Part shown: positions 11,941 to 61,459 of the stretch, in pieces
Position numbering within the stretch: the first letter of the stretch is position 1
Layout: each line of letters begins with the position of its first letter
Source: Crocinitomicaceae bacterium
Lineage (GTDB): Bacteria; Bacteroidota; Bacteroidia; Flavobacteriales_D; Crocinitomicaceae
DNA length: 64,000 nucleotides
Reading direction: 5' to 3'
Assembly: GCA_024643365.1 (NCBI GenBank)
Contig: JAHENC010000021.1
Span: 223,975-287,974, forward strand
The notes under the pieces: generated by a model
Database searches by the model: none
The model's input: only the letters and a program-made list of their open reading frames with translations
Told to the model about the DNA's origin: nothing
Program-made: the position numbers and the translations under genes

Positions 11941-12224
11941 ATCCTTCTACTTTTAAAGTTGAATGAAATGCGTCGGTTTCTTTATTATTCCGCGCTTTTT
12001 TTGCGTAGTAAGGAATTCAAGCAAATTGAACGCATCACCATTTTAGGTAAAGCTGAAATGTTTCAAAATTAAACATGAAGACCTAAAACCCAATTAGATG
12101 AAGGGATGACACGTCTTTCATCCTCTTTAAATCATACAAAAACACAGCGATTTGCCTTAAAAAATGGGCTAGCAAAACGACTTAATCTTAGCTTAACATT
12201 TCCTTCATTTTAAGCACAAATACC

Positions 12225-49864: not shown

Positions 49865-49897
49865 ATTAAGGAAATGTTAATTGTATGACGCATTCTA

Positions 49898-49953
49898 TTA
49901 ACACAATCTTAACTTTCGATTAATTTACGGATTAAAGTGTCGACGTTCCTTTG
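49898..49953 (+). promoter_or_regulatory. PhoB-like operator and promoter of the TonB-dependent receptor gene
   Basis: TTAAC at 49898, TTAAC at 49909 and TTAAT at 49920 stand in exact 11-base register, the spacing of tandem PhoB subsites. The -7-like TTCCTTTG starts at 49946, 26 bases after the start of the last pentamer. No TTTG is at -33; the boxes lie there instead, as expected for an activator-dependent promoter. A fourth TTAAA at 49932 is one base out of register, and TTAAT at 49877 lies further upstream. Confidence 0.6.
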
Positions 49954-49975
49954 CATCGTGATTTAAACCCGATTT

Positions 49976-52822
49976 ATGAAGACCTATTTTCGCTTTTTTA
50001 CCTTATTCATTTTCAGTTCTATACAACTCATTTCCCTTGCTCAAACGGGAAGCATTTATGGAGTTATTAAGGATAAAAACAACGGTAGTCCCTTGGAATC
50101 TGCCAAAGTTATGTTAATGGGAGTAAACAAATTGGCTATTTCCGATGCGACTGGTGTATTCTCCTTCACTTCTTTAGAACCAGGAACGTATGGATTGGAA
50201 GTTCGCTTTATGGGGTATTTGTCCCAGAAAGTGGAAAACATCATCGTTAAGTCAGGCGAAAAAACAGAGGTGAATTTTGACATGGATAATGCAACCAAAA
50301 CAGAGAAAGAATTAAAAGTATTTTTCCAATCTAAACCGAAAGGAGATGCTGAAATCACTAAAATGCAGTTGAATCAAGGTGGACTTGTAGACGGAATTAA
50401 TAAAAATACCTTTATCAAAACACCAGATGCACGTGTATCAGACGTCTTCAAACGCATCAGTGGTGCAAGTGTTCAAGATAATAAATTTGTTGTTGTACGT
50501 GGATTAAGTGACCGATACAACTTTGCATTAATCAATGGCGCTTCTTTACCAAGTACAGAAAGTGACCGTAAAGCTTTTGCTTTCGATATTTTCCCATCTA
50601 ATATGTTAGAGAATCTTTTTGTAATGAAAAGTGCCACACCAGAACTTCCCGGAGAATTTGCTGGTGGAGTGATCGATATCAAAACATTAGAACCGCGTGA
50701 TGAAGCGTTTCAAAACATTCAAATTGGTGGATCTTACAATAGCATAAGTACTTTCAAAAACTTCAAAACGTATTCTAGTGGAAACTCCGATATATTTGGC
50801 TTGGGATCAAATACGCGTCAATTACCAGTTGGACTTCCATCTACTGCGGAATTTAATGCGTTAACAAGTGATCAAAAGGCTTCCTTCGCAAAATCAATTC
50901 CAAACTCTTGGGGTTCAAGTAACATGACTGCAATGCCTAATCTAAGTCTACAGTATTCGATTGGAAATATGTTTAAATTGAAAAACAAAAGAAAATTCGG
51001 ATATGTTTTTGCTTACTCTTACTCAAATAGTGCACAATTCAATTATGTAACTAGAAGAGAATTCGAAGAGCAAGCAACTGGAGTCGTTACAAAAAATGAA
51101 TTGCGTGACTCCGCTTACACGCAATCCGTTCTAAACACCGGAATGCTCAATTTAAAATACCAATTGAATCCAAAAAATGATATTCAATTGAAAACACTGT
51201 ACTCTATCAGTGCAGATGACAAAGTAAATACAAGAAATGGTAAACGTGATATGGACGTAGAATCTGTGTACAACGAGAAATCTACGAATATCTGGTATAC
51301 TCAAAACAACTTATTAAGTACTCAGTTACTAGGTAACCACAGTATTAAAGATAAAATCAAAGTTTCTTGGAATACTGGAATTAGCGACATTTCACGTCAA
51401 ATTCCTTTCCTAAGAAGAACCGTTTACCAACAAGTAGATACGACGTTGCCATACTTTGCAGTGATTCAAGCAAATGATATTTCTACACTCGGTGCAGGTA
51501 ATATGTTTTGGTCGAATTTAGATGAACGCATTTACAGTGGTCGATATGACGCTTCTTACCAACTCGGAAACGATGAATCGAAAAACTTCTTAAAAGCAGG
51601 TGGAATGCACCAATACAGAACACGTTCTTTCGATGCAAGAAACCTTGGTTTCAGTAAATTAGATCCAAGTGGAAGTTCAAGCTTTAACTCTAACTTGCTT
51701 CTTTTACCGGAAGACCAAATTTTTGCAGCCGAAAATCTTGGCTTAATGGCTGATGGACAAGGTGGTTTCAAATTAGAAGAAGGAACGAATGTAGATGATA
51801 GTTACCAAGCTTCATCCTTTTTAAATGCAGGATACGCTATGATTGATGCACGCCTATTTAGCAAATTAAGAATTGTGACCGGTGCTCGATTGGAATCGTA
51901 TAACCAACAATTCCATTACATTGAGTTTGGTTCTAACGCTCAAAAAGACCTTGACACAACAGTTGTAGATATTTTACCATCGATCAATTTAACGTACAGC
52001 TTCACTAAACGTTTTCAATTCAGAGCAAGTGCTTCTAGAACATTATCTCGACCTGAATTCCGTGAACTTGCACCATTTACATTTTATAACTTCCTAAATG
52101 ATAACTTAACGGCAGGTGATCCAAAATTACAGCGTGCATTGATTAATAACTACGATGCAAGATTAGAGTACTTTCCTGGTGAAGGTCAAGTCGTGAGTGT
52201 TTCTGGATTCTATAAAGACTTTCAAAATCCAATCGAATTAATCTTGCGCACAGGTACATCCGGTACACCAGAATTATACTACCGCAATGTTGGAGCCGTA
52301 AAAAGTTATGGAGCCGAAATTGAATACCGTATGAAATTGGATTTCCTAAGTAAGGACACTACTTCTTTCTGGAAAAACTTTACATTCTATACAAATGCTT
52401 CACTTATTCGATCAAAAGTTGACTTAAGTGCTGTTTCTGGACAAGCAGAATATCCTAACTCTTCTAGACCAATGCAAGGACAATCACCATTCATTATCAA
52501 TGCAGGTATTTTCTACTCAAATGAGAACGCACTTAATGTGAGTTTATCTTACAATCTTGTTGGGCAGCGTATCGCAATCGCAGGAAGTATTCAAGAACCA
52601 AGTGTTTGGGAAAATGGCCGTAACGTATTAGACTTCCAAATTTCTAAAACATTCAAAGAAAAATACGAAGTGAAATTAAATGTGAAAGATGCCCTTGCTC
52701 AAGACTTGGTATTCTTTCAAGACATTAATAAAAATCAAAAATACGACAAAGGTGTAGATAGCGCTTGGCAAGAAATAACCTTTGGTCAAACCATTAGCTT
52801 GTCTTTGAAATACAAGTTCTAA
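49976..52822 (+). CDS. TonB-dependent receptor with carboxypeptidase-regulatory-like N-terminal domain
   Basis: A 948-residue outer-membrane receptor. A signal peptide (about 1-22, ending SLAQ) precedes a carboxypeptidase-regulatory-like domain (about 25-105, GSIYGVIKDKNNGSPLESAKVMLMG...GVFSFTSLEPGTYGLEVRFMGYL). The plug domain is about 130-250 (TPDARVSDVFKRISGASVQDNKFVVVRGLSDRYNFALING, FAGGVIDIKT). The barrel ends in SLSLKYKF with the terminal aromatic. It is not a SusC-type receptor paired with SusD. The operator-like repeats and the adjoining PhoB/PhoR-like genes point to phosphate or organophosphate uptake, which is inference. Confidence 0.9.
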   Translation: MKTYFRFFTLFIFSSIQLISLAQTGSIYGVIKDKNNGSPLESAKVMLMGVNKLAISDATGVFSFTSLEPGTYGLEVRFMGYLSQKVENIIVKSGEKTEVNFDMDNATKTEKELKVFFQSKPKGDAEITKMQLNQGGLVDGINKNTFIKTPDARVSDVFKRISGASVQDNKFVVVRGLSDRYNFALINGASLPSTESDRKAFAFDIFPSNMLENLFVMKSATPELPGEFAGGVIDIKTLEPRDEAFQNIQIGGSYNSISTFKNFKTYSSGNSDIFGLGSNTRQLPVGLPSTAEFNALTSDQKASFAKSIPNSWGSSNMTAMPNLSLQYSIGNMFKLKNKRKFGYVFAYSYSNSAQFNYVTRREFEEQATGVVTKNELRDSAYTQSVLNTGMLNLKYQLNPKNDIQLKTLYSISADDKVNTRNGKRDMDVESVYNEKSTNIWYTQNNLLSTQLLGNHSIKDKIKVSWNTGISDISRQIPFLRRTVYQQVDTTLPYFAVIQANDISTLGAGNMFWSNLDERIYSGRYDASYQLGNDESKNFLKAGGMHQYRTRSFDARNLGFSKLDPSGSSSFNSNLLLLPEDQIFAAENLGLMADGQGGFKLEEGTNVDDSYQASSFLNAGYAMIDARLFSKLRIVTGARLESYNQQFHYIEFGSNAQKDLDTTVVDILPSINLTYSFTKRFQFRASASRTLSRPEFRELAPFTFYNFLNDNLTAGDPKLQRALINNYDARLEYFPGEGQVVSVSGFYKDFQNPIELILRTGTSGTPELYYRNVGAVKSYGAEIEYRMKLDFLSKDTTSFWKNFTFYTNASLIRSKVDLSAVSGQAEYPNSSRPMQGQSPFIINAGIFYSNENALNVSLSYNLVGQRIAIAGSIQEPSVWENGRNVLDFQISKTFKEKYEVKLNVKDALAQDLVFFQDINKNQKYDKGVDSAWQEITFGQTISLSLKYKF

Positions 52823-52845
52823 TTCTTTGTTATCACCCTATTTAT

Positions 52846-52873
52846 GAAAAAGCGGCTTATGCCGCTTTTTTTG
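52846..52873 (+). terminator. Terminator after the TonB-dependent receptor gene
   Basis: AAAAAGCGGC, loop TTAT, GCCGCTTTTTTT. It is 24 bases after the stop codon. Confidence 0.9.
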
Positions 52874-52897
52874 TTTGTTAACATTGAAGCACATTCC

Positions 52898-52964
52898 TTA
52901 ACAAACTCTTAAAGTAGAATTAAGGGTCCAATAACTTAAGTCGAAGGATAACGTCGGAACTTTG
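52898..52964 (+). promoter_or_regulatory. PhoB-like operator and promoter of the large T9SS protein gene
   Basis: TTAAC at 52898, TTAAA at 52909, TTAAG at 52920 and the degenerate ATAAC at 52931 keep an exact 11-base period. The -7-like GAACTTTG starts at 52957, again 26 bases after the start of the last box, as at the receptor gene. A further TTAAC lies at 52878, 20 bases before the first. No -33 TTTG is seen. Confidence 0.62.
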
Positions 52965-55558: not shown

Positions 55559-55590
55559 GGCTGCTAGACCATGTCTAGCAGCCTTTTTTT
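55559..55590 (+). terminator. Terminator between the T9SS protein gene and the PhoB-like gene
   Basis: GGCTGCTAGAC, three-base loop CAT, GTCTAGCAGCC, then seven T residues: an 11-bp perfect stem. The regulator start codon is only six bases beyond it, and I see no -7 element between, so the regulator may be transcribed by read-through. Confidence 0.92.
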
Positions 55591-55596
55591 AGCCCT

Positions 55597-56274
55597 ATGG
55601 AAAACTCAAAAGGACATACCATTTTAATCGTTGATGATGAACCAGATATTCTTGAGTTCCTTTCCTACAATATCCGTAAAGAGGGATTTAAAGTATACGT
55701 GGCATCAAACGGTCAAGAAGCGTTGCGAATTGTTCAACAAATAAATCCATCTCTCATTCTTTTGGATGTGATGATGCCAGTCATGGACGGTATTGAAACT
55801 TGTCAAATTATTCGTAAGGACTTGAATCTCAATCAACCGATAATTGCTTTTTTAACAGCCCGCACGGAGGACTACGCTCAAATCGCAGGTTTTGAAGCAG
55901 GGGCGGATGATTACATTAATAAACCCATAAGACCTAGGTTATTATTAAGTAAAATTGAATCCTTACTTAGAAGATCTAAAACTTCAGAAAAACAAATACA
56001 ATCAACTATTCAAATCGACCGTGACAGATTCCTTGTAATCGTAAATGGTGAATCTTTAACATTACCCAAAAAGGAATTCGAATTACTTGAATTACTTGCT
56101 AGTCGACCAGGAAAAGTATTCAATCGAGATCAAATACTTTCTGTCGTTTGGGGAAATGAAACCATCGTTGGAGAAAGAACTATCGATGTTCATATTAGAA
56201 AATTGCGTGAAAAGCTTGGAGATGATTATATTCGTACCATAAAAGGTGTCGGATATACCTTCAAGGATAAATGA
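55597..56274 (+). CDS. PhoB-like response regulator
   Basis: A 225-residue OmpR/PhoB-class regulator. The receiver has VDDE (D13-D14), phospho-acceptor Asp57 in LILLDVMMP, Thr in FLTARTED and Lys in YINKPI. The C-terminal winged helix includes LPKKEFELLELLASRPGKVFNRDQIL and GERTIDVHIRKLREKLGDDYIRTIKGVGYTFK, close to the PhoB recognition pattern. It is coupled to the histidine kinase gene by a four-base overlap. Adjacent operators with 11-base register match how PhoB binds tandem direct repeats, which supports a PhoB role but does not prove it. Confidence 0.85.
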   Translation: MENSKGHTILIVDDEPDILEFLSYNIRKEGFKVYVASNGQEALRIVQQINPSLILLDVMMPVMDGIETCQIIRKDLNLNQPIIAFLTARTEDYAQIAGFEAGADDYINKPIRPRLLLSKIESLLRRSKTSEKQIQSTIQIDRDRFLVIVNGESLTLPKKEFELLELLASRPGKVFNRDQILSVVWGNETIVGERTIDVHIRKLREKLGDDYIRTIKGVGYTFKDK

Positions 56275-57344
56275 AAACAGCAAGACCTAGCATTTTAATT
56301 TTTTATGGGAGTTTAGCATTCATGCTCATCAGCTTCCTATTGACTCTACTAGTTCACAATAGTATCCTCGCATTGAGTACAAACCTCATTATTGCCATTC
56401 CTCTTTTTTCAGGCGTATTTGCTTACCTCGTTTTCTATTTCCTATTAAAAGGATTTATTCAATATAGACTTTCGCTCATATACCGATCTATCCAGATCAA
56501 ACAGCCAGAGAATATCACCTTCGCGAAATCAATTGATTCCCTCATGGAGGATGCCGAAAAAAACGTGGCAGAGTGGAAAGAAAATAGCAGCATTGAAATC
56601 TCCAAACTAAAAGAACAAGCTGAATTTCGTAAAGAATTTCTTGGGAATTTAGCCCACGAACTTAAAACACCCGTTTTTTCCATTCAAGGATACTTACTGA
56701 CCTTACTTGACGGTGGACTTGAAGACCCTACTGTTAATCGATCGTTTCTTGAAAGGGCATCGAAATCCACAGATCGAATTACTGGAATTCTGGAGGACCT
56801 CGATCAAATTACCCGCATGGAAACAGAGAATCTTCGCCTCGAAATCCGATCTTTTGATATTGTAGAATTACTGAAAGAATCTTTTGAAACCTTCGAACTT
56901 ATTGCCAAAGAAAAAAATTACCAATTACTTTTTGAGAAATCATTTACCTCCAAATACGTAAACGCTGACCGCAATAAACTCGGTCAAGTCTTTACAAACT
57001 TGATTTCAAATGCCATCTCATACGGAAAGGAAAATGGAACTTTACTAGTATCCATTTTGGATATTAACGACCACTACCTACTAGAGTTTAAAGATAATGG
57101 TCCCGGAATTGAACCTCATCACCTCTCCCGCTTATTTGAGCGTTTTTACCGAGTAGAAAAAAGTAGAAACCGAAATGAAGGTGGGTCAGGATTAGGACTA
57201 TCCATCGCCAAACATATTGTCGAATCTCACGGTCAATCTATTCAAGTGAAAAGTCAAGTTGGAATTGGAACAACCTTTGTGTTAACTGTCGAGAAAAGTA
57301 AAAACACAGGTCCTGTAAGCTCAAGGGGTATTCCTTTGAAATAA
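56271..57344 (+). CDS. PhoR-like sensor histidine kinase
   Basis: A 357-residue membrane kinase. Two membrane helices lie near residues 8-27 and 32-57 with a very short periplasmic loop, so it is unlikely to bind a ligand outside; PhoR-type kinases sense through the membrane and a transporter. The linker is about 60-115. The H-box is LGNLAHELKTPVFSIQGYL with His129. The catalytic domain shows the N-box (LGQVFTNLISNAISYG), the D-box as LEFKDNGPGIEPH, the F-box and the G-box (NEGGSGLGLSIAKHIVE). There is no PAS domain. It is the partner of the preceding regulator. Confidence 0.88.
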   Translation: MKTARPSILIFYGSLAFMLISFLLTLLVHNSILALSTNLIIAIPLFSGVFAYLVFYFLLKGFIQYRLSLIYRSIQIKQPENITFAKSIDSLMEDAEKNVAEWKENSSIEISKLKEQAEFRKEFLGNLAHELKTPVFSIQGYLLTLLDGGLEDPTVNRSFLERASKSTDRITGILEDLDQITRMETENLRLEIRSFDIVELLKESFETFELIAKEKNYQLLFEKSFTSKYVNADRNKLGQVFTNLISNAISYGKENGTLLVSILDINDHYLLEFKDNGPGIEPHHLSRLFERFYRVEKSRNRNEGGSGLGLSIAKHIVESHGQSIQVKSQVGIGTTFVLTVEKSKNTGPVSSRGIPLK

Positions 57345-61421: not shown

Positions 61422-61459
61422 TTGAATCAAGGTTAAGATTCTGTTAAGTTTTTTTTGTT
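61422..61459 (+). promoter_or_regulatory. Weak PhoB-like repeat set upstream of the ExbB operon
   Basis: TTGAA at 61422, TTAAG at 61433, TTAAG at 61444 and TTGTT at 61455 keep an 11-base period; two are good matches and two degenerate. No -7 element stands 26 bases after the last one; the nearest good one is at 61583. The set may still be an upstream operator, or chance in an A/T-rich stretch. Confidence 0.35.

Follow-up and report, generated by a model that had tools for sequence, protein, structure and literature searches.

Arrays of TTAA boxes repeated at 11-base steps precede a TonB-dependent receptor gene and the adjoining gene for a T9SS surface protein in the 64-kb stretch of DNA analyzed here (the window; Table 1). 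It is highly probable, from comparison of orthologous promoters, that these repeats are the Pho box of Bacteroidota, i.e., PhoB operators driving a phosphorus-scavenging pair of the FII/ElpS type. Open-access literature searched for the Pho box, PhoB or the Pho regulon in Bacteroidota described no Pho box for this phylum. With a consensus whose spacing to the promoter is fixed, the phosphate regulon would become predictable across the phylum, uncultured lineages included, and it singles out the receptor and its beta-helix partner as a likely main phosphorus-scavenging machine. It also raises the question of how PhoR senses phosphate in the absence of Pst and PhoU.

Table 1. Operator, promoter, terminator and gene features of the window
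Feature	Position	Strand	Remarks
TTAAN boxes at 11-base steps	49898..49924	+	TTAAC 49898, TTAAC 49909, TTAAT 49920; putative PhoB operator for the TonB receptor gene
Four-box array, 11-base steps	52898..52935	+	TTAAC 52898, TTAAA 52909, TTAAG 52920, ATAAC 52931; putative PhoB operator for the T9SS gene
Upstream box pair	49866..49881	+	TTAA 49866 and 49877, at -84 and -73 from TTTG
-7 element of receptor promoter, TTCCTTTG	49946..49953	+	TTTG 49950; from sequence; no -33 TTTG
-7 element of T9SS promoter, GAACTTTG	52957..52964	+	TTTG 52961; from sequence
TonB-dependent receptor, 948 aa	49976..52822	+	PF13620/PF13715, PF07715, PF00593
Intrinsic terminator-like hairpin, receptor-T9SS intergenic region	52846..52871	+
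T9SS surface protein, 851 aa	52988..55543	+	Right-handed beta-helix domain, Ig_7, PKD, Por_Secre_tail
Strong terminator-like hairpin and T tract	55559..55583	+	Fills the 53-base gap before phoB
PhoB-like response regulator	55597..56274	+	Best NCBIfam matches are PhoB models
PhoR-like histidine kinase	56271..57344	+	Pfam: only HisKA and HATPase; two apparent membrane segments

Box arrays and their conservation

An earlier note on this DNA had placed TTAAN boxes at exact 11-base steps before the genes at 49976 and 52988, with 26 bases from the start of the last box to the -7 element and no TTTG at -33. The boxes were borne out in the sequence, the 26-base distance is exact at both promoters (taking 52931 to be the final box of the T9SS array), and the -33 TTTG is missing from 42 of 42 orthologous promoters. 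Three boxes were absent from that note: the upstream pair at 49866 and 49877, and an additional box at 52878, upstream of the T9SS array. Among 21 orthologous receptor promoters, the upstream pair is represented by TTAA at -73 in 13 and at -84 in 7.

TonB orthologues (40-98% identity) were collected by protein search and not by motif. Relative to the TTTG, TTAA was present at -52, -41 and -30 in 21, 20 and 20 of the 21 receptor promoters; in the 21 T9SS promoters it was present at -63, -52 and -41 in 19, 15 and 15, and TAAC was conserved at -30. Each box position carried 1.95 bits in the receptor promoters, compared with 0.69 elsewhere, and 1.71 bits in the T9SS promoters, compared with 0.65 elsewhere (21 orthologues each); the anchoring TTTG was the one that best fitted the boxes, a choice that favors the register, and conservation of the whole promoter is visible by eye. 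The pattern with its -7 spacing was found at 47 places in 43 of the 61 genus genomes, against 7 places for the reversed control. Conservation at orthologous promoters had been set beforehand as a point on which the operator claim could fail, and the claim came through at both sets of 21 promoters.

Within the window's own genome (2.53 Mb), three perfect TTAA boxes at step 11 occur at five places. Two belong to the receptor and T9SS promoters, another to the intergenic region between the phosphate porin and PiT; one of the remainder lies in a coding region and the other 342 bp from the nearest same-strand gene start. When one mismatch was allowed there was no genome-wide excess (49 matches, against 104 for the reversed control pattern), and the array signal is therefore positional and not global. 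Within the window, 6 array matches were found where 1.05 were expected. Further sites in the genome, beyond the three phosphate promoters, were mostly coding or unconvincing matches.

Other arrays were seen in the window. A TTAAT-N6-TTAAC-N6-TTCAT array at 12182-12207, followed by TAACTTTG, stands before a 2-oxoglutarate dehydrogenase E1-like gene (12249); its spacing is about 5 bases off that of the phosphate promoters. At 61422-61447, the minus strand holds the array TTAACAGAATCTTAACCTTGATTCAA, which comes after an apparent tRNA gene and upstream of a gene (61636) with resemblance to MotA/TolQ/ExbB proton channels.

The array was scored across the phylum as three TTAA[CT] boxes, with a threshold of 11.5 or more. 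Receptor promoters reached this threshold in 39 of 60 cases at step 11, but in 0, 5, 3 and 1 at steps 9, 10, 12 and 13. Beyond the genus, in Bacteroidota, arrays were found before 32 of 63 TonB genes and 30 of 54 genes for the beta-helix partner, compared with 31 of the 296 other genes from the same loci that served as the control (Fisher 7e-12 and 1e-12, respectively). The position of the boxes relative to the promoter is also kept: among distant receptor promoters with both an array and a TTTG, 28 of 34 by tally have a TTTG spaced from the last box by 19, 30, 41 or 52 bases, which is the phase found in the window. Because related species are not independent, the phylum-wide counts overstate the sample.

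TTAA is common in the window's genome and, together with the lack of a genome-wide excess at one mismatch, this would suit boxes that repress instead of activating, or boxes that arose by chance in AT-rich intergenic DNA. Both are very improbable in view of the box-specific conservation, the loss of the -33 element, the specificity for step 11 and the phase lock, and a chance origin is already largely refuted.

The receptor, its beta-helix partner and phoBR

The best NCBIfam match of the receptor is TIGR01782, below the cut-off. In its partner, the N-terminal domain is a right-handed beta-helix according to a structure model (pLDDT 86, pTM 0.90). This domain is covered by no Pfam family, and Foldseek returned no match to the model with E <= 0.001; the fold was assigned from VIA-align, by which beta-helix matches had Z about 22 and an rmsd of 3.4 over 273 residues, and from the strand pattern of the model. 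The domain contains an invariant set of acidic residues, which may bind metal. The hairpin between the two genes suggests that each probably has its own promoter.

Nearly all genus stretches of sufficient length show the order TonB gene, T9SS gene, phoB, phoR; at locus L111 the downstream genes are missing. Outside the genus, in other families, the pair adjoins phoB-phoR (L118, L119), PiT (L118) or a Na/Pi symporter-like gene (L121). Lipoprotein-like relatives occur at L119, L121 and L122. The receptor and beta-helix pair is found phylum-wide in named genomes (Pedobacter, Chitinophaga, Hymenobacter and Prevotella among others), with PiT-DUF47 beside it in Chitinophaga.

A PhoB-like regulator and a PhoR-like kinase had been reported as the next genes in line, and they are, at 55597 and 56271, in an order kept in the genus. 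The 55597 product scored 205 of 270 bits against NF053854 and 201.9 of 296.2 bits against TIGR02154, below the curated cut-offs, though these were its two best families. It carries the recognition helix R-T-I-D-V-H-I-R-K-L-R-E-K of phoB genes that are linked to phoR and phosphate genes. No PAS domain was found in the kinase by Pfam. A hairpin was present in 12 of 12 orthologous gaps examined before phoB (46-62 bases), its position kept and its sequence different. With the hairpin in place a promoter would hardly fit, and phoBR probably depends for its expression on read-through of this terminator, which would give it weak autoregulation.

The genome encodes a second PhoB-like regulator (C10:32783; L096 1495-2271), which has no adjacent kinase. 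The operator could be phosphate-linked and yet be bound by this protein, alone or with the 55597 product: it scores almost as well against the PhoB model (202.7 bits, compared with 204.6), its recognition helix, RTIDVHIRKLREKIG, differs little from that of the 55597 product, and two loci, L183 and L184, have a member of this second group immediately upstream of the TonB gene and phoB-phoR downstream. However, within the genus the regulator next to the pair is always the 55597 orthologue, with its kinase, and several distant first-group phoB genes have arrays of their own. The second regulator is thus an unlikely binder, and the 55597 product is the preferred one.

Phosphate genes and transporters

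Besides the pair, the genes that carry arrays include phoB, DUF47-PiT, OprP-type porins, GDPD, a calcineurin-like phosphoesterase and pstC. The earlier note had proposed looking for the array before other phosphate genes, and across the phylum it was found there, with strong arrays before phoB, DUF47-PiT, OprP-type porin, GDPD and pstC; several, not all, of the 31 array-scoring genes in the control set are phosphate genes. At pstC loci across the phylum, the array was found in 6 of 27 at step 11 and in 0-2 at other steps, counted from 1.5-kb flanks that often miss the operon promoter.

In Pedobacter, strong 11-step arrays stand before both a TonB-type receptor gene (1083 aa) and an adjoining lipoprotein-like gene (546 aa) (L257 8485-14048, L219 8904-14456); it is possible that they form a further phosphorus uptake pair.

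The arrays might instead serve another OmpR-family regulator or another condition, e.g., oxygen or redox, with an incidental link to phosphate. DAP-seq of Riemerella anatipestifer PhoP yielded a TTTAACA core that was compared with the ArcA motif, and a large, mixed regulon (PMC9603813); the likeness to ArcA, the breadth of that regulon and the window array before the 2-oxoglutarate dehydrogenase E1-like gene are all in keeping with such a role. It is nevertheless improbable, because the arrays are repeatedly associated with PiT, pst, OprP-type porin, GDPD, phoB and phoR, and because the Flavobacterium johnsoniae counterparts of the pair are induced upon Pi depletion (receptor Fjoh_0545, log2FC 8.0; lipoprotein FII, Fjoh_0546, log2FC 9.9; PMC8115612). 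The comparative evidence and this induced homologous locus support the phosphate-starvation regulon predicted beforehand.

A gene for a PF07396 OprO/P-type porin is divergent from DUF47-PiT in the window's genome, and an array lies between them (L003 1490-1537, equivalent to C1:26275-26322). This array was considered as the PiT promoter and rejected, being closest to the divergent porin; DUF47-PiT has its own TTTG-N19-TACATTTG promoter. Across 17 species, the porin promoters have 11-step boxes at -24, -35 and -46, so that their phase is shifted by approximately 6 bases, or about half a helical turn, relative to the pair. The regulon had been predicted to be built around the receptor and its T9SS partner rather than a simple porin. 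The conserved arrays of the pair uphold its first part; the contrast with a simple porin needs amending, given that in this genus the OprO/P-type porin beside PiT also has 11-step arrays, albeit in another phase. OprP of F. johnsoniae is not induced without phosphate (PMC8115612).

Neither PhoU nor PstC was detected in the window's genome, which has PiT and DUF47 and hence differs from the canonical Pst-PhoU-PhoR-PhoB system. PhoR is therefore unlikely to be signaled by Pst-PhoU, the route used in E. coli, and DUF47 with PiT is a candidate source of the phosphate signal. PiT was found in 47 of the 61 genus genomes and a PhoU domain, within long frames (450-734 aa), in only 9, none of which has PiT. 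Judging from this distribution, the genus has two alternative phosphate importers. Mutual exclusion of the TonB pair and PhoU was also considered and dropped, as genomes G075 and G079 have both a motif match and PhoU.

Proposed mechanism and comparison with known systems

The sequence itself shows the arrays with their conservation and their phase relative to the -7 element, an enrichment of arrays before phosphate genes, the order of the genes and the lack of detectable Pst/PhoU, and a model shows the beta-helix fold; from these we infer that the 55597 product binds the arrays, that it activates rather than represses, and that this organism responds to phosphate. The last TTAAC-like 11-mer would take the place of the -33 element, and transcription would then require phosphorylated PhoB, stacked on one side of the DNA helix. 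When phosphate is low, the arrays would switch on the TonB receptor and the T9SS-anchored beta-helix surface protein, which together would capture a phosphorus source, making them the putative equivalent in Bacteroidota of the FII/ElpS lipoprotein and its TonB receptor. Read-through into phoB-phoR, behind the conserved terminator, would provide weak positive feedback. The PhoB scores below cut-offs, the nearly equal score of the second PhoB-like regulator, the other phase of the porin array, the uninduced F. johnsoniae OprP, the non-phosphate genes among the 31 array-scoring controls, the small share of pstC loci with an array and the array at 12182 count against the Pho-box reading. A wider proposal, of a phylum-wide Pho operator with its own geometry that is used without Pst/PhoU, with DUF47-PiT signaling and phoBR fed by read-through of the conserved terminator that follows the surface-protein gene, is put forward only tentatively.

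The closest known arrangement is the F. johnsoniae PhoBR locus (Fjoh_0541-0549, ‘PUSIV’), in which a TBDT and a beta-helix surface protein likewise adjoin phoB and phoR (PMC8115612). There, FII is described as a lipoprotein and assigned to the IPR011050 fold class, whereas the window protein has a T9SS sorting domain in place of a lipoprotein anchor; in the window's genus, unlike F. johnsoniae, phoBR is downstream and co-directional. The word ‘motif’ is absent from the main text of that study (PMC8115612). In a Flavobacterium MAG (L194), a PF04101 glycosyltransferase, PhoR, PhoB, the TBDT and the beta-helix protein follow the order of Fjoh_0541-0546, apart from OprP. The F. johnsoniae proteins FI-FIII are reported to have 31-36% identity to the Caulobacter protein (PMC8115612), and Caulobacter ElpS, a phosphate-starvation lipoprotein, is likewise a surface protein paired with a TonB receptor, Cc0171, whose gene is reported to be constitutive (PMC2996285). 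ElpS is released by the T2SS, whereas the window protein is T9SS-anchored, and the latter resembles FII/ElpS in its fold class and gene neighborhood.

The boxes also resemble the TTTAACA core bound by Riemerella PhoP, a PhoB-family regulator of a Bacteroidota species. The PhoB/PhoP operators of E. coli and B. subtilis are tandem direct repeats with an 11-base period that replace or overlap the upstream promoter element, and the B. subtilis Pho unit is TTAACA, nearly the same as the window boxes. The arrays share the features of such a Pho box: 11-base tandem repeats, located in the -35/-33 place at a fixed distance, before phosphate-acquisition genes. Unlike the operators of E. coli and B. subtilis, they are set by a fixed 26-base spacing to the Bacteroidota TAnnTTTG -7 element and extend to as many as five or six units.
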